Part shown: positions 8,636 to 40,405 of the stretch, piece by piece
Layout: each line of letters opens with the position of its first letter
Position numbering within the stretch: position 1 is the first letter of the stretch
From: Lichenostomus cassidix
Taxonomy: Eukaryota; Chordata; Aves; Passeriformes; Meliphagidae
Direction of reading: 5' to 3'
Length of the DNA stretch: 64,000 bases
Assembly: GCA_008360975.2 (NCBI GenBank)
Contig: VLJF02000864.1
Location: 56,607-120,606 of the forward strand
Translations under genes and position numbers: made by a program
Notes under the pieces: generated by a model
Database searches by the model: none
What the model was told of the DNA's origin: nothing
Seen by the model: the letters and a program-made list of their open reading frames with translations, nothing else

Positions 8636-8733
8636 GCTCGGAGCTGACGTGACTCAGGCAGTTTCGGGTTGTGGAGCTAAAAAAGTTCATCCCAACAACA
8701 TGAAACTACCTAAACCACAGAGCAGCTGCGCGG
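8636..8733 (-). ncRNA. MIR196A2: miR-196a precursor hairpin (miR-196a-2)
   Basis: On the minus strand 8712-8691 reads a 22-nt sequence beginning TAGGTAGTTTCATG and ending GTTGTTGGG, identical to mature miR-196a-5p as I know it; the CATG in the middle separates it from miR-196b, which has CCTG. The opposite arm at 8674-8653 ends AAACTGCCTGAG, as in the known 3p strand, and pairs with the 5p arm. The stem extends through AGCTG on the 5' side and CAGCT on the 3' side, with a loop of about 20 nt between the arms. miR-196a-2 lies between HOXC10 and HOXC9, and here it lies downstream of HOXC10 on the same strand. The mature RNA acts in Argonaute to repress Hox mRNAs such as HOXB8 and HOXC8. The 3p arm differs from human at its 5' end (CCACAACCCG instead of CGGCAACAAG, from memory). 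Precursor ends are approximate. Confidence 0.96.
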
Positions 8734-8930: not shown

Positions 8931-8965
8931 TAACAACATGAAACTACCTAAACCACAGAGCAGCT
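8931..8965 (-). pseudogene. Partial miR-196a duplicate, 5' arm only
   Basis: The minus strand carries the first 19 nt of mature miR-196a, TAGGTAGTTTCATGTTGTT, preceded by the same flank as the true precursor (CTCTGTGGTT). The sequence then passes straight into the TAGATAAATACA block of the array. There is no 3p arm to pair with, so it should not form the normal Drosha substrate. Confidence 0.85.
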
Positions 8966-9750
8966 GCGCGGGACTGCGGGGGTCCTGGGGAATTTGAATA
9001 TAAATAATAAAAAAAAAAATAAAAATAAAAATAAAAATAAAAATAAAAATAAAAATAAAAATAAAAATAAAAATAAAAATTAAAAAAAAATAAATGTATT
9101 TATCTATGGGGAGATCCTGGGGAATTTAAATAAAAATATAAATATAAATATAAATAAAAATAAATGTATTTATCTATATTTATCTACAGAGCAGCTGCGC
9201 GGGACTGCGGGGTCCTGGGGGAAAATAAATAAAAATAAAAATATAAAATATAAAATATAAAATATAAAATATAAAATATAAAATATAAAATATAAAATAT
9301 AAAATATAAAATATAAAATATAAAATAAAAATAAAAATAAAAATAAATGTATTTATCTAGATTTATCTACAGAGCAGCTGCGGGAGTGCGGAGGGTCCTG
9401 GGGATTGAAAAAAATAAAAATATAAATAAAAATAAAAATTAAAATTACAATTAAAAATAAAAATAAAAATAAAAATAAAAATAAATGTATTTATCTAGAT
9501 TTATCTACAGAGCAGCTGCGCGGAGGCTGGGGTCCTGGGGATTAAATAAAAATAAAATATAAAATATAAAATATAAAATATAAAATATAAAATATAAAAT
9601 ATAAAATATAAAATATAAAATATAAAATAAATGTATTTATCTAGATTTATCTACAGAGCAGCTTGCGGGACTGCGGGGTCCTGGGGATTAAATATAAATA
9701 ATAAAAATAAAAATAAAAATTAAAAATAAAAATAAATGTATTTATCTATA

Positions 9751-9783
9751 TCAACATGAAACTACCTAAACCACAGAGCAGCT
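9751..9783 (-). pseudogene. Second partial miR-196a duplicate, 5' arm only
   Basis: The minus strand carries TAGGTAGTTTCATGTTG with the same 5' flank, truncated two bases earlier than the copy at 8931. It again runs into the TATAGATAAATACA block with no complementary arm. The intact seed shows that the copy is recent or has little time to decay. Confidence 0.8.
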
Positions 9784-11699
9784 GCGCGGGACTGCGGGGG
9801 TCCTGGGGAAAAATATAAATAATAAAAATAAAAATAAAAATTAAAAATAAAAATAAATGTATTTATCTATGGGGACGTCCTGGGGGTTAAATATAAATAA
9901 AATAAAAATTAAAAATAAAATAAAAATAAAAATAAAATAAAAATTAAAATTAAAATTAAAAATAAAAATAAAAATAAAAATTAAAAATAAAAATAAAAAT
10001 GAAAATAAAAATAAATGTATTTATCTATATTTATCTACAGAGCAGCTGCGCGGAGGCGCGGGGTCCTGGGGGAAATAAATAAATAAAAATATAAAAATAA
10101 AAATATAAAAATAAATATAAATGTATTTATCTATGGGGGACATCCTGGGGGAAATAAAAATATAAATAAAAATATAAAAATAAATAAAAATAAAAATAAA
10201 AATAAAAATAAAAATAAAAATAAAAATTAAAAATAAAAATAAAAATAAAAATAAAAATAAATGTATTTATCTATGGGGGAGATCCTGGGGGGAATTAAAT
10301 AAAAATAAAATAAAATTAAAAATAAATAAATGTATTTATCTGCGGGAGGCGCTGGGAGATCCTGCGGGAATTAAATAAATAAAAATAATTTTAAAAATTA
10401 AAATAAATGTATTTATCTATGGGGGAGATCCTGGGGGAATTAAATAAAAATAAAAATAAAAATAAAAATAAAAATAAAAATAAAAATAAAAATAAAAATA
10501 AAAATAAAAATGTTTATTCATAGGGGAGGCGCAGAGCTCCTGCGGGGGGGAAGAAATAATAAAAATAAAATAAAATAAAAATAAAAATAAATGTATTTAT
10601 CTGTAGGGGAGGCGCGGAGCTCCTGCGGGGGGGAAATAAAATAAAAATAAAATAAAAAATAAAAATAAATAAATGTACTTATCTATGGGGGAGATCCTGC
10701 GGGGGGAGAAATCAAATAAAACCAGTAAAAAAATAATAAAAATAATAAAAATACTACAAATAAATATATGTATCTATGGGGGAGGTCCTGCGGGGCGAGG
10801 AATTACATAAAATAATAAAAATAAAATTTTAAAAAATTAAAATAAATGTATTTATCTATGGGGCAGGCGCGGAGCTCCTGCGGGGGGAAAAATTCATAAA
10901 AATAAAATAATAAAAATAGAAATAAATGTATTTATTTATCTATAGGGGAGGCGCGGAGCTCCTGCGGGGCGAGGAGTTAAATAAAAATTAAAATTAAAAT
11001 TAAAATAAATATATTTATCTAGAGGGGAGGCCCGGAGCTCCTGCGGGGCACAGAGTTAAATAAAAATAAAATAGGAAAAAAATCATAAAAATAAAAATTA
11101 AAATAAATATATAGATCTATGGAGGAGGCGCGGAGCTCCTGCTGGGGGAGGAAATAATAAAAATTAAAATAAAAATAAAAATAAATATATTTATCTCTAG
11201 GGGAGGCGCGGAGCTCCTGCGGGGTGAGGAAATAATAAAAATTAAAATAAAAATTAAAATTAAAATAAATGTATTTATTTATCTATAGGAGAGGCGCAGA
11301 GCTCCTGCGGGGGGAGGAGATAATAAAAATAATAATTAAAATTAAATTAATAAAAAAATTAACAATTAAAATAATAACTAAAATAATATAAAAAATAATA
11401 CAAAAAAATATATAAAAATATATATATATCCACACAGGAGGCAGGAGGTCCTGCTGGGCGAGGAATTAAATAAAAATAAAATTTAAATAAAAATGAAAAT
11501 TCAAAAAGGCGCGGAGCCCAGGAGCCAGGAATTCAATAAAAATAATCAGAATTAAAATAAAATTAAAATAAATATATATATATATATATACAGGGGAGGC
11601 GAGGAGGTTCTGCGGGGCGAGGAATTAATAAAAATCAAAATAAAAATAATCAAAATAAAAATAAAAATGTATATCTGTAGGGGAGGTGGGGAGAGGGGA

Positions 11700-16560: not shown

Positions 16561-19500
16561 TAAAAAATCCGAAAATAAATGGAAATAAATCCCCGCGGAG
16601 AGCAAATCTCCACTCCTACCTTGCGGCGCCTTCCCGAACCTCGCGGATTTCCCAAAATGCTCCAAAATCCCAAAAATCCGCTGGGAAAATCCCCCGAAAA
16701 CCCCCAAAAAATCCCAAAAAATCACCGAAATTCACCCAATCCAGCAAAGCCGCGGCGCATCCCCCAAACCCAGGAAATCCGGTAACCGAAGGCGGACAGA
16801 GAGACAGAAAATCCGATTAAAAATGGAAATAAATCCCAAAAAACCCGCTGGGAAAATGCCCCAAAACCCCCAAAAAATCACAGAAAATCACCGAAATTCC
16901 CCCAAATCCAGGAAATCCGGTAACCAAACCGGACAGACAGACAGAAAATCCGAAAATAAATGGAAATAAATCGTCGCGGAGAGCAAATCTCCATTCCTAC
17001 CTTGCGGCGCCTTCGGCAAACCCGCCGATTTCTCCTTGCCGAATTCCCAAAAAGCTCCAAAATCCCAAAAATCCGCTGGGAAAAATCCCCCGAAAACGCC
17101 CAAAAAATCCCCAAAAATCACCGAAATTCACCCAATCCAGCAAAGCCGCGGCGCATCCCCGAAACCCAGGAAATCCGGTAACCAAAGGCGGACAGACAGA
17201 CAGAAAATCCGATGAAAAATGGAAATAAATCCCAAAAAACCCGCTGGGAAAATCCCCCCAAAACCCCCAAAAAATCACAGAAAATCACCGAAATTCCCCA
17301 AAATCCCCCAAATCCAGGAAATCCGGTAACCAAACCGGACAGACAGACAGAAAATCCGAAAATAAATGGAAATAAATCCCAAAAAACCCCCAAAAAATCA
17401 CAGAAAATCACCGAAATTCTCCAAAATCCAGGAAATCCGGTAACCAAACCGGACAGACAGACAGAAAATCCGAAAATAAATCAAAATAAATCGTCGCGGA
17501 GAGGAAATCTCCATTCCTACCTTGCGGCGCCTTCGGCAAACCCGCGGATTTCTTCTTGCCGAATTCCCAAAATGCTCCGAAATCCCAAAAATCCGCTGGG
17601 AAAATCCCCCAAAAACCCCAAAAAATCCCAAAAAATCACCAAAAATTCACCGAAAATTCCCCAAAATCCCCCAAATCCAGGAAATCCGGTAACCAAACGC
17701 AGACAGACACATAAAACAAGATAAAAAATCCGATTAAAAATGAAAATAAATCCTCGCGGAGAGCAAATCTCCACTCGTACCTTGCGGCGCCTTCCCGAAT
17801 CTCGTGGATTTCTGCGCGCTGGATTCCAAAAATGGGCGAAAAAGCCCAAAAATCCTTCCCAAATCGGCCGGGAAAATCCCCAAAAAAATCCCAAAAAAAT
17901 CACCGAAATTCCCCCCAAATCCAGCAAAGCCGCGGCGCATCCCAAATGCTCCGAAATCCCCCAAATTCTCCCCAAACCCGCTGGGAAATCCGCTCAGAAA
18001 ATCCAAAAATAATCCCAAAAAATCACAGAAAATCACCGAAATTCACCAAATCCAGCAAAGCCGCGGCGCATCCGGTAACCAAACGCAGACAGGGAGATAA
18101 AACAGATTTAAAAATCCAAGAAAAATGGAAAATAAATGAAAATAAATCGTCGCGGAGAGCAAATCTCCACTCCTACCTTGCGGCGCCTTCGGCAAACCCG
18201 CGGATTTCTTCTTGCCGAATTCCCAAAATGCTCCAAAATCCCAAAAATCTTCTCCAAACCCGCTGGGAAAATCCCCCAAAAACCCCAAAAAATGCTAAAA
18301 AATCACCGAAAAATCCCCGAAAATTCCCCAAAATCCCCCAAATCCAGGAAATCCGGTCACCAAACGCAGACAGACAGACAAAACACATTAAAAAAATCGA
18401 GAAAAATTGAAATAAATCGTCGCGGAGAGCAACTCTCCACTCCTACCTTGCGGCGCCTTCCCAAAACCCGCCGATTCCTTCGCGCCGAATCCCCAAAAAG
18501 CTCCAAAATCCCCAAATTTCTCCCCAAACCCGCTGGGAAATCACCCCAAAAACCCCAAAAAATGCCAAAAAATCACCGAAAATTCACGGAAAATTCCCCA
18601 AAATCCCCCAAACCCAGGAAATCCGGTAACCAAACACAGACAGACAGATAAAACAGCATAAAAAATCAGATTAAAATTGAAAATAAATCGTCGCGGAGAG
18701 CAAATCTCCACTCCTACCTTGCGGCGCCTTCCCAAAACCCGCCGATTCCTTCGCGCCGAATCCCCAAAATGCTCCAAAATCCCCAAATTTCTCCCCAAAC
18801 CCGCTGGAAATCACCCCAAAAATGCCAAAAAATCCCCGAAAATTCACCGAAAATTCCCCAAAATCCCCCAAATCCAGGAAATCCGGTCACCAAACGCGGA
18901 CAGACACATAAAACAGCATAAAAAATAGAGAAAAAAAGAAAATAAATCGTCGCGGAGAGCAAATCTCCACTCCTACCTTGCGGCGCCTTCCCGACCCTCG
19001 CGGATTTCTTCGCGCCGAATCCCCAAAAAGCTCCAAAATCCCCCAAATTTCTCCCCCAACCCACGGGAAATCCACTGGGAAAATCCCAAAAAATCACCGA
19101 AAATTCACCGAAAATTCCCCAAAATCCCCCAAATCCAGGAAATCCGGTCACCAAACGCGGACAGACAAATAGAAAAACCGAAAATAAATGGAAATAAATG
19201 GTCGCGGAGAGCAAATCTCCACTCCTACCTTGCGGCGCCTTCCCAAAACCCGCCGATTCCTTCGCTCCGAATCCCCAAAAAGCTCCAAAATCCCAAAATT
19301 TCCCCCCAAGCCCGCGGGAAATCCGCTGGGAAAATCCCAAAAAATCACCGAAAATTAAAAAAAAATTCACGGAAAATTCCCCAAAATCCCCCAAATCCAG
19401 GAAATCCGGTCACCAAACGCAGACAGACACATAAAACAGCATAAAAAATAGAGAAAAAAAGAAAATAAATCATCGCGGAGAGCAAATCTCCACTCCTACC

Positions 19501-19600
19501 TTGCGGCGCCTTCGCCAAACCCGCCGATTCCTTCGCGCCGAATCCCCAAAAAGCTCCAAAATCCCCCAAATTCCTCCCCAAACCCGCGGGAAATCCGCGC
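16560..19600. repeat. Composite array with ten copies of a donor-like block
   Basis: A second unit of about 250-400 bp joins the GGTAACC core of the preceding array to a new block, GAGCAAATCTCCACTCC followed by TACCTTGCGGCGCCTTC. The block occurs near 16600, 16983, 17503, 17763, 18158, 18425, 18698, 18957, 19210 and 19483. On the minus strand it reads GGCGCCGCAAG then GTAGGAGTGGAG, which has the form of a splice donor. It also contains a small inverted repeat, GGAGA and TCTCC around GCAAA. The parent single-copy element was not found in the window. Confidence 0.85.
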
Positions 19601-25301: not shown

Positions 25302-25582
25302 TCAAGTAAAACTAAAACTCGACGTCAGCTCTCGGATCCGGTTCTCCCTGTTCATCTTCTTGAGCTTCATGCGGCGGTTTTGGAACCAGATCTTGACCTG
25401 GCGGTCGGTGAGGTTGATGCTGCGGCTGATCTCCAGGCGGCGCTCGCGGGTCAGGTACATGTTGAACAGGAACTCCTTCTCCAACTCCAGCGTTTGGTGT
25501 TTGCTGTAAGGGCAGCGCTTCTTGCGGCCGCTGCGCGCCGTCAGCCACGTGCCCGGCGGGCTGCCGCCGGCCCGAGCGTCCT
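25302..25582 (-). CDS. HOXC10: HOXC10 exon 2 (homeodomain)
   Basis: This exon encodes the last 92 residues of a Hox10 transcription factor after a split Glu codon. The stop TGA is at 25304-25302. In order it shows a linker (DARAGG...[10 protein letters not shown]), the 60-residue homeodomain starting [20 protein letters not shown], with helix 3 containing [13 protein letters not shown], and a 15-residue tail ending [10 protein letters not shown]. The WFQNRR residues are the DNA-contacting recognition helix. The tail ending in T and the SINLTDRQ sequence fit HOXC10 better than HOXA10 or HOXD10. The acceptor is minus-strand TTTCCCCGCAG before AGGACGCT; joining it to exon 1 restores codon phase (phase-1 intron). 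The protein acts in the nucleus in lumbar and hindlimb patterning. Sequence is intact, with no frameshift. Confidence 0.97.
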
Positions 25583-27545
25583 CTGCGGGGAAACAGCCGA
25601 GGTCAGGAGAGCTAAAAATCGGGGTTTTTTAGCCCAAAAAATGGGGTTAAATGGCTTTTTTCCCGTTAAAATTGCACTTTAAATGAAGATAATTGCACTT
25701 TAAATGAAGATAATTGCACTTAAAATGAAGATAATTGCATTTAAAATGAAGATATTTGTGGAGCCTCCTCTGCGGGGAAACAGCCGAGGTCAGAGGGACC
25801 GAAAATGGGGCTTTTTTAGCCCAAAAAAATTGGGGTTTTCCCCGAAAAAATTGCTTTTTTCCTGGAAAGTAAAGGGTTAGAAATAAAGCTATTTGTGTTT
25901 TCCACGTGCCCGAGGAGCTGCCGGCCCGAGCGTCCTCTGCGGGGAAACAGCCGAGGTCAGAGGGACCGAAAATGGGGCTTTTTTAGCCCAAAAAAATTGG
26001 GGTTTTCCCTGAAAAAATTGCTTTTTTTCCGGAAAGTAAAGGGTTAAAAATGAAGATATTTATGTTTTCCACGTGCCCGAGGAGCTGCCGGCCAGAGCGT
26101 CCTCTGCGGGGAAACAGCCGAGGTCAGAGGGACCAAAAATGGGTTTTTTTAGCCCAAAAAATTTGGGTTAAATGGTGTTTTTCCCCCTAAAAAATGGGTT
26201 AAATTGCTTTTTTTCCGGAAAGTAAAGGGTTAAGAATGAAGGTATTTGTGTTTTTCTGGAGCTCTCCGCCGGAGCGTCCTCTGCGGGGAAACAGCCGAGG
26301 TCAGGAGAGCTAAAAATGGGGTTTTTTACCCCCCAAAAAAATTGGGGTTTTCCCCGAAAAAATGGGTTAAATGGCTTTTTATCCGGCAAGAAAAGGGTTA
26401 AAAATGAAGATATTTATGTTTTCCAGGTTCCCGAGATGCTCTCGGCCGGAGCCTCCTCTGCAGGGAAACAGCCGAGGTCAGGAGAGCTAAAAATGGGGTT
26501 TTTTTACCCGAAAAAATGGAGTTAAATGGTGTTTTTCCCCCTAAAAAATGGGTTAAATGGCTCTTTTTCCGGAAAGAAAAGGGTTAAAAATGAAGGTATT
26601 TGTGCTTTTCTGGAGCTGTCAGCCGGAGCTTCCTCTGCGGGGAAACAGCCGAGGTCAGCACAGCCGAAAATGAGGTTTTTTACCCCAAAAATTTGGGTTA
26701 AATCGTGTTTTTTCCCCTAAAAAATTGGCTAAATTGCATTATTTTCCGGAAATAAAAGGGTGAAGAATGAAGGTATTTGTGTTTTTCTGATGCTCCCGGC
26801 CGGAGCGTCCTCTGCGGGGAAACAGCCGAGGTCAGAGGGACCAAAAATGGGGTTTTTCACCCCAAAAAATTTGGTTAAATGGTGTTTTTTTCCCCTAAAA
26901 AATTGGCTAAATTGCATTATTTTCCGGCAAGAAAAGGGTTAAAAATTGAGGTATTTGCGTTTTTCCCATGCTCCCGGCCGGAGCGTCCTCTGCGGGGAAA
27001 CAGCCGCGGTCAGCACAGCCGAAAATGGATTTTTTTAGCCCAAAAAATGGGTTTAAATGGTTTTGTTTCGCGAAAAATTTGTGTTAAATGGCTTTTTTCC
27101 CGTTAAAATTGCACTTAAAATGAAGGTATTTGTGTTTTTCTGATGCTCCCGGCCGGAGCCTCCTCTGCGGGGAAACAGCCGAGTTCAGCAGAGCCGAAAA
27201 TGGGGATTTTTCCCCAAAAAATTTGGGTTAAATGGCTTTTTTCGTGAGAAAATTGGGTTAAATGGGATTTTTCCGGAAAGAAAAGGGTTAAAAATGAAGC
27301 TATTTGTGTTTTTTTGGAGCTCTCGGGTTTCGTCTCCTCTGCGGGGAAACAGCCGAGGTCAGGAGAGCCGAAAATGGGGTTTTTTACCCAAAAAAATTGG
27401 GTTAAATGGCTTTTTTTCCGTGACAAAATTAAGTTTAAATGGCTTTTTTTCGTGGGGGAAAAAAAAGGGTTAAATGCCATTTTTTCCAGCAAGAAAAGGG
27501 TTAAAAATAAAGATATTTTTTGTGGTTTTTCCAGGCGGAGGTGAC
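25583..27545 (-). repeat. Tandem array of the exon 2 splice acceptor, ten copies
   Basis: A unit of about 167-178 bp repeats the region around the true acceptor. CAG positions on the minus strand fall at about 25770, 25937, 26104, 26281, 26458, 26635, 26812, 26990, 27165 and 27339. Each copy keeps TTTCCCCGCAG or a close variant followed by AGGACGCTC or AGGAGGCTC. The copies at 25937 and 26104 also keep about 35 bases of exon 2 coding sequence, through GGCACGTGG. The rest of the unit is CCCATTTAACCC- and CTTTCCGGAAAA-type filler. Copies nearest the exon resemble it most. Confidence 0.93.
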
Positions 27546-30500
27546 GGGAGGAGAAAGGAGAGACACGACTGGGGCTTTGGGGTGGAAACGCCTTTTTTCC
27601 CCAAAAAATGGGTGAAAAATAAAGATATTTGTGTTTTCCTGATGCTCTCGGCCTTTTCCCGGCAAGAAAAGGGTTAAAAATAAAGCCATTTTTGTGGGTT
27701 TTATGACGTTTTTCCAGGTGGAGATGATGGGAGGATAAAGGAGAGACACGACTGGGGAGGGAAATGGCTTTTTTCCCCCAAAAAATCTGGGTTAAAATAA
27801 AGAAATTTGTGTTTTTCTGATGCTCTCGGCCGGAGCCTCCTCTGCGGAGAAACAGCCGCGGTCAGCAGAGCCAAAAACTGCTTTTTTTCCCCCAAAAAAA
27901 TTGGGTTAAAGGGCTTTTTTTTCGTGAAAAAATTGGATTAAATGGCTGTTTTTCCTGAAAAAATTGGGTTAAATGGATTTTTTTCGTGAAAAAATTGGGT
28001 TAAATGCCATTTTTTTTCCGGCAAGAAATGGGTTAAAAATAAAGCTATTTTTTGTGTATTTTTTGTGGTTTTTCCTGGCGGAGGTGACGGGAGGAGAAAG
28101 GACAGACACGTTTGGGAGGGAAATGGCTTTTTCCCCAAAAAATTTGGGTGAAAATAAATATATTTGTGTTTTTCTGGAGCTCTCGGCCTTCACCTCCTCT
28201 GCACAGCTGAAATCGGCGGGTTTTACCCCAAAAAAATTGGGTTAAATAGCTTTTTTTTGGGTGAAAAATTTCAGGTAAATAGCTTTTTTTTCGGGGAAAA
28301 AAAATGGGTTAAATGGCTTTTTTTTACTCCCCAAAAATAGGTTAAATGGCATTTTTTTCCCCAAAACTGGGTTAAATGGCATTTTTTATCCCAAAAATGG
28401 GTTAAACGGCGATTTTTACCCCAAAAAATGGATTAAATGGCTTTTTTTACCCCAAATAATGGGTTAAATGGCTTTTTTTTCCCCAAAAAAAAGAGTTAAA
28501 TTGCATTTTTTACCCCAAAAAAATGGATTAAATGGCATTTTTTACCCCAAATAATGGGTAAAATGGCTTTTTTTTACCCCCAAAAAATGGATTAAATGGC
28601 ATTTTTTACCCCAAAAACTGGATTAAATGCCTTTTTTCCCCCCCAAAAAATGGGTTAAATGGCTTTTTTTTGGTGAAAAATTTGAGGGAAATGGCTTTTT
28701 TTTTTCGTGAAAAAAAAAAAAAAAAGGGTTAAACCGCCTTTTCCGGCAAGAAAAGGGTTAAAAATAAAGCAATTTTTTTTGTTTTTCTGACTTTTTTTCG
28801 AGGCGGAGGTGATGGGAGGATAAAGGAGAGAAACGGTTTGCGGGTTTGGGGATGGAAATGGCTTTTTTACCCCAAAAAATTGGGTTAAAAATAAATATAT
28901 TTTGATTTTTCTGATGCTCTCGACCTTCGTCTCCTCTGCGGGAAACAGCCGCTGTCAGCAGAGCCAAAAATGGCTTTTTTTTACCCCAAAAAATGGAATA
29001 AATGGCTTTTTTTCCCCCCAAAAAATGGAATAAATGGCATTTCTCCCCGAAAAAAAATGGGTTAAATGGCATTTTTTACCCCAAAACAATCGATTAAATG
29101 GCATTTTTTACCCCAAAAAACGGATTAAATGGCATTTTTTATCCCAAAGAAATTGATTAAATGACATTTTTTACCCCAAAAAATTGATTAAATGGCATTT
29201 TTTACCCCAAAAAAGGGTTAAATGGCATTTCTCCCCGAAAAAAATGGGTTAAAATGGCATTTTTCCCGTAAAAATTGCGCTAAAAATAAAGATTTTTGGT
29301 GGTTTTTGTGACGTTTTTTCGAGGTGGAGGTGATGGGAGGATAAAGGAGAGAAACGGTTTGGGAGTTTGGGGATGGAAATGGCTTTTATTTCCGGAAAAA
29401 AATGGGTTAAAATTAAATATATTTTGATTTTTTTCTGATGCTCTCGACCTTCGCCTCCTGTGCGGGAAACAGCCGCGGTCAGGAGAGCCAAAAATGGCTT
29501 TTTTTACCCCAAAAAATGGAATAAATGGCATTTTTTACCCCCAAAAAATTGATTAAATGGCATTTTTTACCCCAAAAAATGGGTTAAACGGCATTTTTTA
29601 CCCCTAAAAAATTTATTAAGTGGCTTTTTTTACCCCAAAAAATCAATTAAACGGCATTTTTTACCCCCAAAAAATTGATTAAATGGCATTTTTTACACCA
29701 AAAAATGGGTTAAATGGCGTTTTTTACCCCAAAAAATTGATTAAATGGCATTTTTTACCCCAAAAAATCGATTAAATGGCATTTTTTACCCCAAAAATGA
29801 GTTAAACGGCGATTTTTACCCCAAAAAAATGGATTAAATGGCATTTTTTACCCCAAATAATGGGTAAAATGGCTTTTTTTTACCCAAAAAAAGAGTTAAA
29901 TTGCATTTTTTACCCCAAAAAAATTGATTAAATGGCTTTTTTACCCCCAAAAGGGTTAATTTTTTTACCCCAAAATGGGTAAAATGGCTATTTTTTTACT
30001 CCCCAAAATAGGTTAAATGGCATTTTTACCCCAAAAAATGGGTTAAATGGCTTTTTTACCCAAAAATGGATTAAATTTTTTTACCCCAAAAATTGGTTAA
30101 ATGCTTTTTTTTCCCCAAAAAAAAGAGTTAAATCATTTTTTACCCCAAAAAAATGAGCGGCCGGAGGATTAAATCCCTTTTTCCCCCCAAAAAAAGGTTC
30201 AAAATTCAGATTTTTGTGGTTTTCTGACATTTTTTCCAGTCGGAGATGGTGGGAGGATAAAGGAGAGACACGACTGGGGAGGGAAATGGCTTTTTTCCCC
30301 AAAAAATTTGGGTGAAAATAAAGATTTTTGGGTATTTTCTGGAATTCTTGACCTTCCCCTCCTGTGCTGGAAACAGCCGCTTTCAGCAGAGCCAAAAATG
30401 GCATTTTTTACCCCAAAAAAATCGGGAAAAATGGCATTTTTGACCCCAAAAAATGGGTTAAATGGCATTTTTTACCCCAAAAAATGGATTAAACGGCGAT

Positions 30501-30960
30501 TTTTACCCCAAAAAAATGGATTAAACGGCGATTTTTACCCCAAAAAAATGGATTAAATGGCTTTTTTTTACCCCAAATAATGGGTTAAATGGCATTTTTT
30601 TCCCCAAAAAAATGAGTTAAATTGCATTTTTTACCCCAAAAAAATGAGCGGCCGGAGGATCAAATCCCTTTCTTTCCCCCCAAAAAAGGTTCAAAATTCA
30701 GATTTTTGTGGTTTTCTGACATTTTTTCCTGTCGGAGATAACGGGAGAGGAAAGGAGAGAAGCGATTTGGAGGTTTGGGGAGAAAAATGGTTTTTTTACC
30801 CCAAAAAACGGATTGAAAATGAGGCGAAAATAAAGATTTTTTGGGGTTTTTTTGGTGGTTTTTCCAAGCGGAGGAGGTTTGGGGAGAAAAATCGGGAAAA
30901 TGGGTTTTTTTCCTCCCTAAAAAATGGGTTGAAATTCAAAATATTTTGATTTTTTGTGGT
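27500..30960. repeat. Decayed acceptor copies and AAATGGCATTTTTTACCCC array
   Basis: Five more degenerate acceptor copies occur near 27843, 28199, 28936, 29458 and 30362. Interleaved is a second block, GGCGGAGGTGATGGGAGGAT followed by AAAGGAGAGA, near 27535, 27718, 28078, 28803, 29322, 30240 and 30732. Between them the filler TTAAATGGCATTTTTTACCC has expanded into its own 30-bp array. Open frames here are chance or repeat translations. Confidence 0.85.
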
Positions 30961-30984
30961 TTTTTTTTTCGATGGGGGATAAAG

Positions 30985-31335
30985 GAGAGATGAGGTTGAG
31001 ATTCCATTTTCTGCTCCCCGGAGGAGCAAAATTTGGGCTGAAAATGAGATTTTTTGGGGAAAATAAATCCATTTTCTGCACCCAGGAGGAGCAAAATTTG
31101 GGTTGAAATTCAGATTTTTTTAGGGATTTTTTTGGGGGGAAAATAAATCCATTTTCTGCTCCCCGGAGGAGCAAAATTTGGGCTGAAAATGAGATTTTTG
31201 GGGGATTTTTTGGGGGAAATAATTCCATTTTCTTCACCCAGGAGGAGCAAAATTTGGGCTGAAATTCAAATTTTTGGGGATTTTTTTGGGAAATAAATCC
31301 ATTTTCAGCTCCCTGGAGGAGCAAAATTGAGGCAA
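30985..31335. repeat. About 75-bp repeat with GGAGGAGC palindrome
   Basis: Five units contain ATTTTCTGCTCCCCGGAGG AGCAAAATTTGGG (split here for length), near 31010, 31075, 31157, 31231 and 31307. CTCCCCGGAGGAG can form a short hairpin. Between units lie AAATAAATCC and TTTTTTGGGG. Confidence 0.8.
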
Positions 31336-31489
31336 TTCAGGGGAATTTTGGGCAAAATCAAAAAAAAACCAAAAAATCGACATCAAACTCATCTTTGCTC
31401 TTCGAATTTTGCTTAATTTTTGGAAAAAAAAGTTGATTTTTTTCGAATTTTGGGGGAAAAAAATTAACTTTTCGAGGCTCGCGAGGGAT

Positions 31490-32030
31490 TTGGGATTTGA
31501 TTTCCTGGATTTTCCACCCCGAAATTCCCCAAAATTCCCCCAAATTTCCCCAAATCACCCCAAATTCTCCAAAATTCCCCCAAAATTTCCCAAAATTTCC
31601 CCAAAATTCTCCCAAAATCCCCCAAAATTCCCCCAAATACTCCCAAAATTCCCAAAATTTCCCCAAAATTCCCCCAAATTCTCCTCTGACCCCAAAATTC
31701 CCCCAAAATTCCCAAAATTCCTCCTCCCAAACCAAAAACTTCCCAAATTCCTCCAATCTCGGAAATTCCCCAAAATTCCTGACCCTTAAACCCCAAATTC
31801 CCCCAAAATTCTCCCAAATTTCCCCAAAATTCCCCCAAATCCCCCCAAAATTCCCCCAAAATTTCCTCAAATTCTCAAATAATTCCCCAAATTCCCCAAA
31901 TTTCCCAAATTCCTCAAACTCCCAAATTCCCCCAAAAGTCCCCAAATTTCCCCGAAACCCCCCAAAATTCCCAAAATCCTCAAAATAACCCAAAATCTCC
32001 CAAAATTCGGGTTTTTTCCCTCTCAGGTTC
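31490..32030. repeat. AATTCCCCCAAAATT array
   Basis: Words AATTCCCCCAAAATTCCC and CCAAATTTCCCC of about 10-20 bp repeat throughout. Both strands carry long open frames, which are artefacts. Confidence 0.85.
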
Positions 32031-32369
32031 AACCTCAGGAACTTGAATTTCCATAAAAACCTTGAAAATCCACTTGGAATTCTCTTTCCGCCCAAAATTC
32101 CACCAGAAATCCCGATTTTTTACCCCAAAAAAACCCCAAAATTTGGGTTTTTCACCCCAAAAATCTCAACTCGGCGAATTTTCCCTTCAAAGCCCAAAAC
32201 CCCAAAAGCGGCAAAATTCACCCCAAATCACCACGAAGCACAAAAACCTCCAAAAAAAATCCCAAAAATCCTATTTTTCACCCCAAATCCAACAAGATTT
32301 GAAAACAAAAATAAATCTAAATTTCTCTATTTCTTTATTTCCTCCCTCAGTGCAAATTCAACTCCAAAA

Positions 32370-33110
32370 ATCACATTTTTTGGGGTTTTTTGGGGTTTTT
32401 TTGGGTTTTTTTTCCCAGCAAAATCTCTCCCGGCGACGCCTTGGGAATTTTGGGGGTTTTTTTAGGGTTTTGATAACCTTGACTTTGATTTTTTGGGTTT
32501 TTTGGGGTTTTTTGGGGGTTTGTTTTGGGATTTTTTTGGGGTTTGTTTTGGTTTGTTTGGGGTTTTTTGGGTTTTTTGGGGTTTTTTGGGGTTGTTTGGG
32601 GTTTTGGGGTTTTTTTTTTATTTTTTGGGGGTTTTTTTGGTTTGTTTTGGGTTTTTGGGTTTTTGTTTGTTTGTTTTGGGGTTTCTTTGGGGTTTGTTTT
32701 GGGGTTTGTTTTGGGGTTTTTTTGTTTGTTTTGGGGGTTTTTTTGGGTTTTGGTTTGTTTTGGGGTTTTTTGGGGTTTTTTGGGGGTTTATTTTGGGTTT
32801 TTGGGGTTTTTGTTTTGTTTTGGGGTTTTTTGGGTTTTTTTGGGGTTTTCTTTGGTTTGTTTTGGGTTTTTTGGGTTTTTGGTTTGTTTTGGGGTTTTTT
32901 TGGGGGTTTTTGGGTTTTTTTGGGTTTGTTTAGGGTATTTTCTTTGGTTTGGGGGTTTTTTGGGGTTGTTTTGGGGGTTTTTTTGTTTGTTTTGGGGGTT
33001 TTGGGGGTTTTTTGGTTTTTTTTTTTTTGTTTTTGGGTTTTTTGGTTGTTTTGGGGTTTTTCAGGGTTTTTTCGGTTTGTTTTGGGTTTTTTTGGGGTTT
33101 TTTTGGGGTG
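32370..33110. repeat. GGGGTTTTTT array (G-quadruplex-prone)
   Basis: About 740 bases of plus strand are almost only G and T, with dozens of GGGG or GGG runs 4-8 bases apart (TTTTGGGGTTTTTTGGGG and similar). This spacing is that of G-quadruplex DNA. The G-rich strand is the template strand for HOXC10. Open frames (Phe/Gly/Leu-rich) are repeat translations. Confidence 0.9.
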
Positions 33111-33174
33111 GAATCGAAGCTCAGCCGGCAGAGGAAATCATTTCCCCTCTGGATGGAGAAAAAAATTCCGGAGG

Positions 33175-33520
33175 GAAATGTTAATTAGTTGATAAAATCA
33201 ATAGAAAAATGTTAATTATCTGATAAAATCAATGGGAAAATGCGAATTATGAAAAAAAATCAAGAAGTAAATGTGAATTATTGGACAAAATCGAGGGAAA
33301 AATGCGAATTTTTTGACAAAAATCGAGGGGAAAATGTGAATTATTCAATAAAATCAATAGGAAAATGCGAATTATTGGACAAAATCGAGGGAAAAATGCG
33401 AATTTTTGGACAAAAATCGAGGGAAAAATGCGAATTTTTGGACAAAACGCCAATTATTGAACTCAAGAGGGAAATGCGAATTATTCAACAAAATCAGGGA
33501 GGAAAAAAAGGGAATTTTGG
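33175..33520. repeat. AAATGCGAATTATTGGAC array
   Basis: About nine units of 35-40 bp contain AAATGCGAATTATT, GGACAAAATCGAGGG or GATAAAATCAATGGG. Each has TTAATTA or GAATTATT. Confidence 0.8.
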
Positions 33521-33619
33521 GGGTTTTGGAGAGGTTTTGTCGGAGCTCCAGGAATTTTGGATAATCCCAAATTTCACCCCAATTTTGGGATATTTTAATC
33601 CATAAAGTTCAGGATGAGA

Positions 33620-34555
33620 TTCGAGAGGAATTTCCCTCATTTTTTTCAACTTTATTTCCATTTATTTCCATTTTTTTCAACTTTATTTCCATTTATTTCC
33701 AATTTTTAATGTTTATTTCAATTTATTTCCTTTTTTTCAACGTTTATTTCAACTTAATCCCATTTTTTCAACGTTTATTTCAATTTATTCCCATTTTTTA
33801 ACGTTTATTTCAACTTATTCCCATTTTTTCAACTTTTATTTCAATTTATTCCCATTTTTTTAAGGTTTATTTCACTTTATTCCCATTTTTTCAACGTTTA
33901 TTTCCATTTATTTCCATTTTTCCCCCAAAATCCAACTCCATCCTCCACCTCCGGCTTTCCCCAGCTGGGAATTCCCAAAAAAACCCCAAATTTTGGGATA
34001 TTTTAACCTCCAAATCTCAGGCTGAGATCCGAGCTGAATTTCCCTCATTTTTTTAAACTTTATTTCAACTTATTTCCATTTTTTCAACGTTTATTTCAAT
34101 TTATTCCCAATTTTTTCAACGTTTATTTCACTTTATTCCCATTTTTTTTACGTTTATTTCACTTTATTCCCATTTCTCAACGTTTATTTCAACTTATTCC
34201 CATTTTTTCAACGTTTATTTCACTTTATTCCCATTTTTTAACGTTTATTTCACTTTATTCCCAATTTTTTCAACGTTTATTTCAACTTATTCCCACTTTT
34301 TCAACGTTTATTTCACTTTATTCCCATTTTTTAACGTTTATTTCAATTTATTCCCATTTTTTAAAGGTTTATTTCAACTTATTCCCATTTTTTTAATGTT
34401 TATTTCAATTTATTCCCATTTTTAAACGTTTATTTCAATTTATTTCCATTTTTTTAACGTTTATTTTCATTTTTCCCCCAAAATCCAACTCCATCCTCCA
34501 CCTCCGGCTTTCCCCAGCTGGGAATTCCCAAAAAAAACCCCAAAAAAACCCCAAA
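33620..34555. repeat. CAACGTTTATTTCAACTTATTCC array with duplicated flank
   Basis: A 31-bp unit, CAACGTTTATTTCAACTTA plus TTCCCATTTTTT, repeats about 25 times in two blocks. Each block ends in the same stretch of about 70 bases, CCAACTCCATCCTCCACCTC then CGGCTTTCCCCAGCTGGGAA (near 33940 and 34483). The whole block is therefore a segmental duplication that includes its unique edge. Confidence 0.85.
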
Positions 34556-34559
34556 AATT

Positions 34560-34775
34560 CCCCAATTTCGCCACCCGGAGCTCTTTCCGTGCGAATTTCA
34601 GCTGCGGAAAATCGAAATAATTCAAACCATCTGCGCAGCTCAACTCAAAGCTTTTCCTCCTCCGCAAACTCGAGTTTCATTCATCCCAAAAAACCGCAAA
34701 ATTCAATTTAGAAAGAGATTTTTTTCCATCTTTGTCACGACCGGAATTCCCTCCCGGAGCTGCGAATTCCACTTT
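34560..34775. promoter_or_regulatory. Unique island inside the HOXC10 intron
   Basis: About 210 non-repeated bases include CACCCGGAGCTC, GAAATAATTCAAACCATCTG, CTCAACTCAAAGC and GTCACGACCGGAATTCC. It is the longest non-repeat stretch of the intron away from the exons and is a candidate remnant of a conserved intronic element. No splice sites or coding frame stand out. Confidence 0.35.
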
Positions 34776-36110
34776 TTCCATTTTTTTGGGATTAATTTGT
34801 ATTTTTTAAGGTTTTTTTCCCTTTTTGGGTTTAATTTGCATTTTTTCAGGTTTTTTCCATTTTTTGGGTTTAATTGTACCTTTTAAGTTTTTTTCCATTT
34901 TTGGGGTTTAATTTGGTTTTTTAAGGTTTTTATCCATTTTGGGTTAATTGTATTTTTTAGTTTTTTTCCCATTATTTTCATTTGAATTTGTATCTTTTAA
35001 GTTTTTTTCATTCTTTTCATTTGAATTTGTATTTTTTAAGGTTTTTCCCCATTTTTTGGGTTTAATTTGTATTTTTAAAGGTTTTTTTTCAATCTTTTCA
35101 TTAATTTGTATTTTAAGGTTTTTCCCCATTTTTTGGGTTTAATTTGTATTTTTTAGGGTTTTTTTCTCATTCTTTTCACTTTAATTTGTATTTTTTAAGG
35201 TTTTTTTCCATTTTTTGGGTTTAATTTGTATTTTTTAAGGTTTTTTCCATTTTTTAAAAATCTTTTTTCCATTTTTTGGGTTTAATTTGCATTTTTTAAG
35301 GTTCCAAACAAAAACCAAACAAACCAAAAAAACAAAACCAAAATTTTTTTCCATTTTTTGGGGTTTAATTTGTATTTTTTAAGGATTTTTTCCTTTTTTT
35401 TGGGTTTAATTTGGGTTTTTTAAGGTTTTTATCCATTTTTTTGGGTTTAATTTGTATTTTTTTAGGTTTTTTTCCCATTATTTTCATTTGAATTTGTATT
35501 TTTTAAGTTTTTTTTTTCATTCTTTTCATTTGAATTTGTATTTTTTAAGGTTTTTTCCCCATTTTTTTGGGTTTAATTTGTATTTTTAAAGGTTTTTTTT
35601 TCAATTTTTTGGGTTTAATTTGTATTTTTTAAGGTTTTTTTTCCATTTTTTGGGTTTAATTTGTATTTTTTAGGGTTTTTTTCTCATTTTTTTGGGTTTA
35701 ATTTGTATTTTTTAAGGTTTTTTTTCCATTTTTTGGGGTTTAATTTGTATTTTTTCAGGTTTTTTTTTCCATTTTTTGGGGTTTAATTTGTATTTTTTAA
35801 GGTTTTTTTCCATTTTTTTGGGTTTAATTTGTATTTTTTAAGGGGTTTTTTCCATTTTTTGGGTTTAATTGCATATTTTTCAGGTTTTTTTCCATTTTTT
35901 GGGTTTAATTTGTATTTTTAAGGTTTTTTCCCATTTTTGGGGTTTAATTTGCATTTTTTAAGGAGTTTTTTTCCATTTTTTTGGGTTTAATTCGTATTTT
36001 TTCAGGTTTTATTTTCCATTTTTTGGGGTTTAATTTGTATTTTTTTAGGGGGTTTTTTCCATTCTTTTCATTTGAATTTGTATTTTTAAGGGTTTTTTTG
36101 AACCCAGAAG
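34775..36110. repeat. TTTGGGTTTAATTTGTATTTT array
   Basis: About 30 units of roughly 43 bp contain GGGTTTAATTTGTATTTTTT, AAGGTTTTTTTCCATTTT. A unit variant has TCATTTGAATTTG. Copies are very similar. Confidence 0.88.
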
Positions 36111-36179
36111 GAGCGAAATTCGCAAGGAAATGGATGGGAAAAATCAGAATTTATGGACCTCAAAAAGGGTAAAAATCTC

Positions 36180-36835
36180 TCAAAAATATCACTAATATCT
36201 CACTAAAATCTCACTAAAACATCTCTAAAATATCACCAATATATCACCTAAAGATCACCAAAATATCACCAAAATCTCACCTAAATCTCACCAAAGTCTC
36301 ACCTAAATATCACCAAATTATCACCAAATTGTCATCAAAACATCACAAAAATATCACCAAAAACTCACCAAAATATCACCAAATTATCACCAAATTATCA
36401 CCAAAATATCACCTAAATCTCACCTAAATATCACCAAATTATCACCAAAATCTCACCAAAAAATCACCAAAACATCACCTAAATATCACTAAAACATCAC
36501 CAAAACATCACCAAAACATCACAAAAATATCACTAAAATATCACCAAAAACTCACCAAAATATCACCAAATTATCACCAAAGTATCACCTAAATATCACC
36601 TAAATATTACCAAAATCTCACCAAAATCTCACCAAAAAGTCACCAAAACATCACTAAAACATCACAAAAATATCACTAAAATATCACTAAAATATCACCA
36701 AATACTCACCAAAATATCACTAAAAACTCACCAAAAAATCACCAAAAAAATCACCAAAATATCACCAAAATATTACCAAAATATAATAAAAATATCCCCA
36801 AAATATCACCAAATTATCACCAAATTATCACCAGA
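36180..36835. repeat. ATATCACCAAA 11-bp array
   Basis: About 60 copies of ATATCACCAAA, with ATCTCACC, ACATCACC and ATTATCACC variants, run for 650 bases. The strict short period and few other bases make it a microsatellite-like array. Confidence 0.9.
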
Positions 36836-36839
36836 ATTT

Positions 36840-36995
36840 CCGCCCAGAAACCCCCAAATCTCCTCGATTTCCACCCAAAATTCTCCCCAAAAATCCGAAT
36901 TTCCATCATTTATTTTCCAATAAAACAGATTTTCCTCCTCACGGGGAAAACTCGCTGCTGCCTTTGCTCCTCAAGGAGATTGAAATATGGAAATA
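36840..36995. other. Short unique island in the intron
   Basis: Non-repeated sequence includes CCTCGATTTCCACCC, TTTATTTTCCAATAAAACAG and CTCGCTGCTGCCTTTGCTCC. It borders the next array, whose first unit starts inside it. No function is evident. Confidence 0.25.
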
Positions 36996-38775
36996 AATCC
37001 TAAAAATAACAGGATTTGGGGCAAAAAATCTCGTTTTCGGGGTTTTTTTTCCATAGAAATATAGAAATAAATCCTAAAATAACAGGATTTGGGAAAAAAA
37101 TCTGATTTTTGGGTTTTTTCCCATAGAAATATGTCAATAAATCCTAAAAATAACAGGATTTGGGGCAAAAAATCTCATTTTTGGGTTTTTTTTTCCATAG
37201 AAATATAGAAATACATCTTCAAAATAACAGGACTTGGGGAAAAAAATCTGATTTGGGGGTTTTTTTCCATAGAAATATGGAAATATATCTCCAAACCAAC
37301 TGGATTTGGGGCTCAAGATCTGATTTTTGGGTTTTTCCATAGAAATATGGGGAAAATATAAAAGATATAATAAATCTTCAAAACAACCGGATTTGGTGCA
37401 GAATATCTGATTTTGGGGGTTCCTATAAATATATTTTCAAACCAACTGGATTTGGGGCAAAAATCTCATTTTGGGGTTTTTTTCCATAGAAATATAGAAA
37501 TATATCTTCAAAATAACAGGATTTGGGGTAAAAACTCATTTTGGGGTTTTTTTTCCATAGAAATATAGAAATATATCTTCAAAATAACAGGATTTGGGTA
37601 AAAAATCTCATTTTTGGGGTTTTTTCCCATAGAAATATAGAAATATATCTTCAAACCATCAGATTTGGGGTAAAAATCTGATTTTGGGGTTTTTTCCATA
37701 GAATATATAAATATATCTTCAAAATAACTGACTTGGGGAAAAAAATCTGATTTTGGGGTTTTTTCGCATAAAATATGTAAATATCTTTTCAAACCAACCG
37801 GATTTGGGGCTCAAGATCTGATTTTTGGGGTTTTTATTCCATAGAAATATAGAAATAAATCTTCAACCATCAGGATTTGATGCAGAACATCTGATTTTTG
37901 AGGTTTTTTTCCCATAAAAACATAAAACCACATTCCCAGCCCAGCAGGATTTGCTCCAGAATATCCAATTTTGGGCTTTTCCCATCAAAATACAAAAATA
38001 TGTCTTCAAAACTGCAGGATTTGGGACAGAATATCTGATTTTTGGGTTTTTCCCCATCAAAATACATAAATATATTTTCAATACAACCGGATTTGGTTCA
38101 GAAAATCCAATTTTTGGGGTTTTTTCCCATAAAAACATAAAACCACATTCCCAGCCCAGCCGGATTTGGGGCAGAATATCTCATTTTGGGTTTTTTTCCC
38201 ATAAAAATATGTAAATACATCTTCAAACCAACCGGATTTGGTTCAGAACATCCAATTTTTGGGGTTTTTTCCCATAAAAATACATAAATATCTTTCCAAC
38301 CTAACCGGATTTGGTGCAGAATATCCAATTTTGGGTTTTTTTCCCCATAAATATCTTTCCAACCCAGTAGGATTTGGGGCAGAATATCCAATTTTGGGGT
38401 TTTTTTCCCATAAAAACATAAAACCACATTCCCAGCCCAGCCGGATTTGGTTCAGAATATCTAATTTTTGGGTTTTTTTCCCATAGAAATATAGAGATAA
38501 ATCTTCAAAACAAACGGATTTGGGGCAGGATATCTCATTTTGGTTTTTTTTTCCCATAAAAATATAAAAACACATTTCCAACCAGCAGGATTTGGGGATC
38601 AATATCCAATTTCTGGGTTTTTTTTCTTATAAAAATAGGTAAATATATTTTCAAACCAGCAGGATTTGGTGCAGAATATCTCATTTTTGGGGTTTTTCCC
38701 ATAAAAATATGTCAATACATCTTCAAACCAGCCGGATTTGGCTCAGAAAATCCAATTTTTGGGGTATTTTTCCCC
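36995..38775. repeat. About 64-bp tandem repeat, about 26 copies
   Basis: Each unit contains CCATAGAAATATAGAAATA, a CTTCAAAATAACAGGATTTG block, GGGCAAAAAATCTGATTTT and a TTTTGGGGTTTTT tail. The second half of the array (37900-38770) uses variant blocks with CCCAGCCCAGCCGG. Two sub-families have evidently been amplified separately. Confidence 0.9.
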
Positions 38776-38779
38776 AATT

Positions 38780-38890
38780 TCCCGAAGGCAGCAGCAGGAG
38801 CAGCAGCGAGCTCCCCATTAACCATTCCCCAATTAATTAAACCATTCAACCCCAATTAATTAATTAACGAATTAATTAATTAACCAATTC
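38780..38890. promoter_or_regulatory. TTAATTAA cluster just inside the intron
   Basis: Immediately 3' of the exon 1 donor, 38836-38885 holds a run of AATTAATTAA cores, then CCATTAACC and a GCAGCAGCAGG block. Six or more overlapping TAATTA-type sites lie in 50 bases. Homeodomain proteins, including Hox factors themselves, bind such cores, so auto- or cross-regulation is possible. An AT microsatellite by chance is the alternative. Confidence 0.35.
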
Positions 38891-38895
38891 CCTAC

Positions 38896-40405
38896 CTTTG
38901 CCCTCGCAGTCCGAGTTGTCGCTGCCGCTTCCCTCCGCGGAGCTCCTCCCGCGCTCCTTCCCCGCGGAGCTCCTCCGCGCCGCGCCGCGCAGCTCCTCCC
39001 GCTTCACCTCCGCGCCGCGCAGCTCCCGCGGAGCTCCGGCCGCGCCCGCGGAGCCGGGACCAGGAGGAGGAGGAGGAGGAGGAGGAAGAGGAGGAGGAAG
39101 AGGAGAGACCTCGAGCCTCTCGCTCCTCCCCTCCGCGAACCTTCCCGCGTGGAAATCCGCGGAGCTCCGCGGTTTGTCTAACTCTAACCCCGCGTGGAAA
39201 TCCGCGGAGCTCCGCGGTTTGTCTAACTCTAACCCCGCGTGGAAATCCGCGGAGCTCCGCTGTTTGTCTAACTCCAACCCCGCGTGGAAATCCGCGGAGC
39301 TCCGCGGTTTGTCTAACTCCAACCCCGCGTGGAAATCTGCGGAGCTCCGCGTTTTATCGAGCTCCAACCCCGCGTGGAATTCCGCGGAGCTCCGCGGCTT
39401 GTCTAACTCCAATCCCGCGTGGAAATCCGCGGAGCTCCGCCGTTTATCGAGCTCCAGCCCAGAGTGGAATTCTGCGGAGCTCCGCGCTTTATCTAACCCC
39501 GCGTGGAAATCCGCGGAGCTCCGCGCCTTGTCTAACTCCAACCCGGAGTGGAAATCCGCGGAGCTCCGCGGCTTGTCTAACCCCGCGTGGAATTCCGCGG
39601 AGCTCTGCCGTTTATCGAGCTCCAGCCCAGAGTGGAACTCCGCGGAGCTCCGCGTTTTGTCTAACTCTAACCCGGAGTGGAAATCCGCGGAGCTCCGCGT
39701 TTTATCGAGCTCCAGCCCCGCGTGGAATTCCGCGGAGCTCCGCGTTTTCTCTAACCCCGCGTGGAACTCACTCCGCGCTTTCTCCAACTCCAACCCCGCG
39801 TGGAAATCCGCGGAGCTCCGCGCCTTCTCCAGCTCCAACCCCGCGTGGAACTCACTCCTCCCCTTCTCCAGCGCCGCGTAACCCGCGCGGAAGTACACCG
39901 CGGCTGCGGCTGCGGGCAGCTCGGGCTCGGGCAGGCAGGGCTGGGCGAGCGGCGCGGGGAAGAGCGCGGAAGGTCCCTCGGGATGTCCCTGCTGGTGTCC
40001 CTGCTGGTGTCCCTCGGGGTGTCCCTGCTGGTGTCCCTCCGGGGGTCTCCGCTCGGCTCTCCCCGCGGCTCTCCCCGCGGCTCGGGGCGCTTTTTCCGCG
40101 GCGAACATGCAGCAAACATTCTCCTCCTTCACCGGGAAGGAGCAGGCGGGCAGCTGCTGGCCGCGGAATGTCCCCTTGGGGTCACCCCAGGCGTCCAGCT
40201 GCGCCACGCAGGGCTGGTAGGAGCCCAAAGCCACCTCGGAGCCCTTGGCGACGAGCGCGGAGCAGCCGCGCATCGCCGCGCACGGGCTGAAGTCGCCCGG
40301 CTGGGCGAACATGGCCAGCGGCTCGCTGCGCGGGGCGCGGAGGAAGGGCGACGAGGAGGAGGAGGAGGAGGAGGAAGATGTCACTCGCTCCTCACATGAT
40401 GACAT
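38896..40405 (-). CDS. HOXC10: HOXC10 exon 1 with in-frame 45-bp repeat expansion
   Basis: The exon encodes residues 1-503 from an ATG at 40405 and ends at a phase-1 donor, AAAG before GTAGGG. The start is supported by alignment of the first residues (C..RVT) with human HOXC10. In order: poly-Ser 10-19; MFAQPGDFSPCAAMRGC at 32-48; QLDAWGDPK at 69-77; VKEENVCCM at 92-100, a Hox10 hallmark; a GHQQGHPEG repeat at 123-144; ELPAAAAAVYFRAGYAALEK around 162-181; sixteen tandem units of the FHAGLELDKxRSSAD type at 186-417; a proline tract at about 436-448; an acidic/Ser end SGSDNSDCEGK. Units are 15 residues (45 bp) or 13 (39 bp), always in frame. The recalled human protein has 342 residues in all, so this one is greatly enlarged. 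The region is intact, CpG-rich and unlike its AT-rich neighbours. Confidence 0.95.
39155..39850 (-). repeat. 45-bp coding minisatellite in HOXC10 exon 1
   Basis: Sixteen units, twelve of 45 bp and four of 39 bp, are followed by a seventeenth partial copy (FHAGRF). On the plus strand each unit reads GTGGAAATCCGCGGAGCTCC, then GCGGTTTGTCTAACTCTAAC and CCCGC. Variation is at few positions: A/S after FH, D/E at the unit end, and P, T, A, Q or R after DK. The 39-bp units lack two residues of LELDK. All length steps are multiples of three. Confidence 0.95.

Follow-up and report, generated by a model that had tools for sequence, protein, structure and literature searches.

The closest described system is exon stuttering, reported in chicken by Hron et al. 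(2026, PMC12954441), whose main text gives 115 genes and 236 introns, 190 of these introns on dot chromosomes. There, exon parts with a median of 36 bp at the exon border are present in 1-44 copies over a median span of 1,751 bp; donor or acceptor sites are copied, and both 'potential alternatively spliced transcripts' and length variation between alleles are mentioned (PMC12954441). Dot chromosomes are a strong preference of stuttering and no strict rule, the intact coding regions are the authors' observation and no screening criterion, and on the molecular cause the authors themselves only speculate (PMC12954441). Two other systems come near. In chicken Crest, a 195 bp tandem duplication in the HOXC10 intron is reported to cause ectopic HOXC expression (PMC8022956; corrigendum PMC8824791), showing that a tandem duplication in this intron can change chicken HOXC expression. 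Moreover, OGT is reported to be among the genes whose introns are retained under the influence of decoy exons, and the OGT decoy needs a 5' splice site (PMC12017769).

Here we describe an array of splice acceptor copies in the HOXC10 intron of a songbird, Lichenostomus cassidix. Our analysis suggests that this array is, very probably, exon stuttering on a repeat-choked bird microchromosome: a neutral, fast-turning expansion that leaves behind usable, mostly outcompeted acceptors. Exon stuttering would then reach beyond the chicken cases, into a songbird and into Hox genes. The first-pass annotation of this DNA knew of no described Hox gene with such an array. Stuttering itself had been published in chicken, although the word HOX is absent from the main text of PMC12954441. 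No report of a Hox acceptor array was found among the matches listed in the literature, judged by titles and abstract openings, and no match was found there for decoy arrays either.

The HOXC10 locus and its acceptor copies

The window, the whole 64-kb stretch of DNA that was analysed, carries HOXC10 on its minus strand. The coding part of exon 2, with the homeodomain and including the stop codon, lies at 25302..25582 (translation EDARAGG...SFSFT, then the stop), the intron of 13,313 bp at 25583..38895 (donor AAG/GTAGGG at 38895), and the coding part of exon 1, 503 codons plus one base, at 38896..40405. Using a protein query from which most of the internal repeat was left out, the seven best matches were all bird HOXC10, the top one from the shrike Lanius ludovicianus (51% identity over 85%). 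Downstream of the gene, also on the minus strand, is a mir-196 precursor at 8646..8721 (Rfam RF00256, 76 bits), which folds (z -4.9). Two partial copies of its 5' arm, at 8934..8966 and 9752..9784 on the same strand, belong to a tandem array next to the genuine precursor; a miRNA function of these copies was rejected because they form no hairpin (z +0.5 and +0.7, respectively). None was found in the 70 kb searched (25001-95000) of C472, a second contig carrying HOXC10.

The true acceptor of exon 2 (25583..25606, minus strand) consists of a CTGAC branch-point-like site, a pyrimidine tract and CAG. As the first-pass annotation had claimed, it is followed into the intron by an array of acceptor copies on the minus strand. 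The array stood, and two of its stated properties had to be corrected: there are 11 copies instead of ten, and the first step is 187 bp, outside the claimed period of 167-178 bp. A search of the 64 kb with a 33-base motif, allowing up to 9 mismatches, gave 12 matches on the minus strand, which are the true site and the 11 copies, and none on the plus strand. From the true site outward to the last copy the spacings are 187, 167, 167, 177, 177, 177, 177, 178, 175, 174 and 503 bp, and the four successive steps of 177 bp were thus correctly described.

Over 20 intron and 3 exon bases, seven of the 11 copies are identical to the true site, three differ by one base and one by two. The identical ones are copies 1 (25766..25793, AG ending at 25770), 2 (25933..25960, AG at 25937), 3 (26100..26127, AG at 26104), 4 (26277..26304, AG at 26281), 6 (26631..26658, AG at 26635), 7 (26808..26835, AG at 26812) and 10 (27335..27362, AG at 27339). 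One mismatch is found in copies 5 (26454..26481, AG at 26458), 8 (26986..27013, AG at 26990) and 9 (27161..27188, AG at 27165), and two in copy 11 (27838..27865, AG at 27842), which is missing from the earlier list; all of these lie on the minus strand. In every copy a branch-point-like CTGA(C) is followed by a spacer, then by a pyrimidine tract with CAG and by the opening bases of exon 2. The AG is present in all 11, in agreement with the claim that most copies keep the pyrimidine tract and AG. The copied block, of about 170 bp, straddles the border of intron and exon 2, with about 140 bp of intron and up to 38 bp of exon; the roughly 35 bases of exon 2 described in the copies ending at 25937 and 26104 are indeed there, and a diverged exon remnant is additionally present at 26458. 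Exon 2 itself is not altered by the array.

The acceptor array is one among very many, as 81% of the window lies inside Tandem Repeats Finder arrays. Tandem repeats cover 75% of the intron (25583-38891). Note that large arrays with units of about 93-271 bp occupy 14343-19596, with cores such as ATCCGGTAACCAAAC and TCGCGGAGAGCAAATCTCCACTCC; the TCGCGGAGAGCAAATCTCCACTCC core is very well conserved (ratio 0.09, core against rest of the unit) and has no known function.

Splice site strength and reading frame

Are the copies usable acceptors? The first-pass annotation had proposed that the spliceosome faces decoy acceptors upstream of the real one, and had named near-zero acceptor scores in all copies as the observation that would make the array inert. 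Since seven copies share the 23-mer of the true site, any splice model limited to these positions scores them exactly as it scores the true acceptor, so near-zero scores throughout would require a near-zero true site too; this statement of relative strength is model-free, and locally these copies are as strong as the real site. The proposed search for branch points gave a CTGAC-like site, with its A 21 bases 5' of the exon, in 10 of the 11 window copies. Absolute scores depend on the frequency tables that were used. With 4.7 the true acceptor is only moderate on this scale, at the 92.7th percentile of the 2,133 AGs on the minus strand. Leaving the copies aside, 7 of 400 AGs in the intron score above it, two of them inside the array region (25862 and 27787). 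Scoring of splice donors in the array gave no good one (best 1.2; the true donor reaches 4.9), which makes cassette exons formed from the copies unlikely, and this candidate was rejected. Stepwise (recursive) splicing was also rejected, the copies reading CAG/AGG and not CAG/GT.

One alternative is that the array generates isoforms, its copies acting as alternative acceptors that alter the linker before the homeodomain. A message spliced from exon 1 to a copy would retain the whole sequence between that copy and exon 2, barring a further splice. Read in this way, all 11 window copies run into a stop in the HOXC10 frame after 9 to 96 codons, before exon 2 is reached, and on C472 the same happens in 12 of 13 copies. 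The remaining C472 copy, at 60880, is the nearest to exon 2 (168 bp upstream) and is open; it would add 56 residues before the homeodomain, as the isoform reading requires. With 1 of 24 copies open overall, none of them in the window, neither the claim that the reading frame is often kept across units nor the idea of isoforms with altered linkers is supported for the window. The spacings in the intron ignore frame, whereas the repeat in exon 1, described below, holds one frame over 17 and 18 units. We therefore regard an isoform generator as very improbable.

Under the preferred reading, exon stuttering without a selected function, the copies remain complete acceptors locally, so that splicing may reach them in a small part of the transcripts. 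Such transcripts would end in intron sequence and encode a HOXC10 without homeodomain. Exon 2 is the last exon, so these truncated messages might escape the decay that is triggered by downstream junctions. When acceptors of equal strength compete, the upstream one is favoured under intron definition, a preference that is significantly weaker when the flanking introns are long; both results, as reported, refer to internal exons (PMC9225289). We expect the true exon 2 site to win mostly, with some leakage to the copies, because exon 2 is terminal, follows a 13-kb intron and has the only site with the body of the homeobox exon and the regular 3' end behind it. The locus could serve as a natural experiment on how the spliceosome picks one acceptor when a dozen almost equal ones are on offer.

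A second contig, turnover and core conservation

The HOXC10 locus occurs twice in the same genome (1.10 Gb, 514 contigs), on C473, which is the contig of the window, and on C472. On the latter, the array has 13 copies in a different arrangement, the AG being kept in 12 and lost in one, and the intron measures 12,199 bp compared to 13,313 bp in the window. Outside the array, a comparison of the two contigs shows one difference in 278 bases of exon 2, none in 119 aligned bases of the mir-196 stretch and 11 in 430 bases of the 5' portion of exon 1. Across 42 repeat-free segments of at least 120 bases, 263 of 9,310 aligned bases differ when pooled, with a wide scatter from 0 to 16%. By their homeodomains, eight HOXC-like genes lie on C31 and C470-C473; five have a counterpart on another contig with the same or almost the same score, and three, located on C31, occur once. 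In the best aligned pieces of the paired loci, substitutions range from 0/2,227 (HOXC8-like) to 360/3,030 (HOXC10 region). Judged from these comparisons, C472 is most likely the other haplotype, in a partly resolved pair with C473; the two loci might also represent a recent duplication.

When units were compared between the contigs (12 x 14), the best partners were just 88-97% alike. Because exon 2 differs at a single base, yet the copies number 13 against 11 and their best partners are this diverged, the acceptor array appears from these alignments to be turning over much faster than the exons. In the window, copies farther from the exon differ more from the true site (Spearman 0.69, p 0.019, 11 copies) and neighbouring units are more alike (Mantel rho 0.56, p 0.0002), p-values that are indicative only, since the units of an array are related. 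Moreover, the opening 38 bases of exon 2 are present without any change in the C472 copies at 60880 and 59832. These trends, together with the exact exon edges on C472, fit repeated copying at the exon edge followed by outward drift: new copies would arise near the exon by slippage, unequal exchange or conversion, and would then drift away from it.

Such regions are hard to assemble, and both C472 (141,073 bp) and C473 (120,606 bp) are short contigs, as would be expected of an assembly or sequencing artefact. However, the two contigs share the unit and differ in the number and order of copies, and a differently arranged array on C472 argues against a one-off assembly error. In addition, all 12 HOXA/HOXD-like loci of the same assembly are free of copies, and like arrays in chicken PHF8 are reported as confirmed by raw nanopore reads (PMC12954441). 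An artefact is thus extremely unlikely.

Could the array instead be maintained as a functional decoy? In this scenario U2AF and U2 snRNP would bind to the copies, the intron would be removed more slowly or not at all and so be retained, and copy number would set the HOXC10 dose. In its favour, the 24 copies on the two contigs hardly differ in the acceptor core (AG in 23) while the flanks of the core vary, and decoy exons are reported to drive intron retention in OGT and other genes (PMC12017769). When 26 acceptors from the two contigs are taken together, minority bases make up 1.5% of the 28-base core CTGAC..AGGA, compared to 32% in the 7 columns on its 5' side and 18% in the 11 columns on its 3' side; within the core, the spacer is most variable. 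Within the window, variation affects 4 of the 28 columns of the core and 23 of 41 ungapped columns in the adjacent intron (Fisher p 0.0005, again to be taken as indicative in view of the relatedness of the units). The core is far better kept than its immediate flanks, a contrast not expected from plain neutral decay.

As a control, we compared the best 28 bases with the rest of the unit in 21 repeat arrays of the window (period 70-300, at least 3.5 copies, overlaps removed). The acceptor array ranks fifth of 21 by this ratio (0.12; range 0 to 0.61). Of the four arrays below it, two have 3.7 and 3.9 copies and one a low-complexity core, leaving the array at 17944-19596 (ratio 0.09) as the sole fair match. 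Sharp cores thus occur in this window without known function, and the control weakens, and does not remove, the case for selection on the copies; selection as read from core conservation was downgraded, not discarded. Against the decoy reading also stand the unequal copy number and order on the two contigs, and the need of the OGT decoy for a 5' splice site (PMC12017769), when the best donor in the array scores 1.2 compared to 4.9. OGT-type decoys resemble the copies in being intronic splice sites able to engage the spliceosome without being used, and they have, in the reported cases, acceptors and donors (PMC12017769); here it is acceptors that are copied, and the search for a donor gave no good one. 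We consider a functional decoy array improbable.

In a further reading, to which we also give little probability, the copies would have kept branch point, pyrimidine tract and AG in full because they work. They would form a polymorphic series of live acceptors, longer on some alleles than on others, that pushes HOXC10 towards intron-terminated, homeodomain-less products or a retained intron. If this were true, posterior Hox dose would vary with repeat number between individuals.

Other Hox loci, exon 1 and comparison with known systems

To place HOXC10 among its paralogues, the best 30 of 88 homeodomain matches in the genome were checked over about 1.4 kb upstream for copies of the exon edge, counting as a copy any presumed acceptor with AG and at most 7 mismatches of 26 and with the acceptors picked automatically. 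From homeodomain similarity and grouping we take C29, C31, C470, C472 and C473 to carry HOXB/HOXC, and C4 and C10 to carry HOXA/HOXD. Copies with AG were present at 10 of the 18 loci taken as HOXB/HOXC-like, which becomes 6 of 12 once duplicate or haplotype pairs are merged, and at 0 of 12 HOXA/HOXD-like loci in the 1.4 kb upstream. A border-spanning query at 42.1 bits gave 11 of 18 against 0 of 12, the two screens disagreeing on one locus, L040. Median repeat coverage is 0.725 at the HOXB/HOXC-like and 0.02 at the HOXA/HOXD-like loci. Besides HOXC10, the loci with copies are L024, L022/L023, L026/L027, L029/L030 and L045, with up to 9 copies with AG. These 9 are at the HOXB9-like L024 and are mostly poorer than those of HOXC10; the acceptor picked there may be a copy itself. 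Several weaker upstream copies sit in T-rich sequence. HOXC10 has the cleanest copies within 1.4 kb, 8 per contig with 0-2 mismatches. The genome thereby offers an internal control, with four paralogous Hox clusters of which two are stuttered and two are clean, and it places key developmental genes inside hypermutable repeat DNA.

Repetition has also entered the coding sequence. In exon 1, a repeat of the type FHAGLELDKPRSSAD (39144..39850, minus strand) has 17 units in the window, spaced 15 or 13 residues, and 18 on C472 (within 47277-48849), the spacings over both contigs being 15, 13 or 11 residues. On each contig the units share a single open frame, which has 503 codons in the window and 524 on C472. 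In the 12 full 15-residue units of the window, 25 synonymous and 21 non-synonymous differences from the consensus were counted, compared to 30 synonymous and 105 non-synonymous single changes that are possible (ratio 0.24); the 12 units of C472 gave 24 and 16. Given this excess of synonymous differences, the repeat is most likely translated and under constraint. The motif FH[AS]G was found in none of 120 listed homologues (the best 120 of 2,003). A second coding repeat of exon 1, of the GH[QP][QE] type, lies around the RRPPEGHQQGHPEG stretch, and its length differs between the contigs.

How does the locus compare with the known systems? It shares with Crest a tandem duplication in the intron of HOXC10; however, Crest as reported is a single duplication that overlaps a conserved element (PMC8022956), and here there are many acceptor copies. 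A link to the Crest element was rejected after a search of the window gave no convincing primer match (F1 none with up to 5 mismatches, R1 best 4), and nothing ties Crest to the array.

With exon stuttering the likeness goes much further. As in the chicken cases described in PMC12954441, the edge of an exon, with about 36 bp of exon and the splice site, is repeated in tandem through the neighbouring intron, and there too simple repeats fill the introns, length varies strongly between alleles and paralogues on larger chromosomes are free of stuttering. At HOXC10 the copied block includes the exon border and the splice site, with AG in 11/11 copies in the window and 12/13 on C472, and the intron is heavily covered by simple repeats, at the 75% given above. 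Provided that C472 is the other haplotype, there are length alleles of 13,313 and 12,199 bp with 11 and 13 copies. A border-spanning query at a threshold of at least 42.1 bits finds 7 copies in 1.4 kb on each contig. The published screen asks for an exon-only match in the intron of at least 20 bases and at least 42.1 bits (PMC12954441). With such a query the window intron gives 0 matches (best 34.2 bits, 17 bases) and C472 two of 75.8 bits, so the window haplotype alone would escape that screen, and the assignment to exon stuttering owes itself to the border-spanning test and the second contig. As for chromosomal setting, the contig C473 measures 120,606 bp, and C31, where other HOXC-like genes are found, 3.58 Mb. 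In chicken, HOXC10 maps to chr33, which has some features of a dot chromosome, yet is not classed as one.

The differences lie in the genes and in what is repeated. The chicken cases in PMC12954441 are PHF8 and others; here the affected genes are a songbird HOXC10 and other HOXB/HOXC-like genes. Coding regions are described there as intact (PMC12954441), whereas the coding exons here are not unaltered, exon 1 carrying an in-frame repeat, and partial copies of a microRNA precursor are found downstream. Since Hron et al. report intact coding regions (PMC12954441), this Hox coding exon, which a repeat has entered in frame and with a unit number that differs between two contigs, is the most surprising item of the locus and goes beyond stuttering as published.
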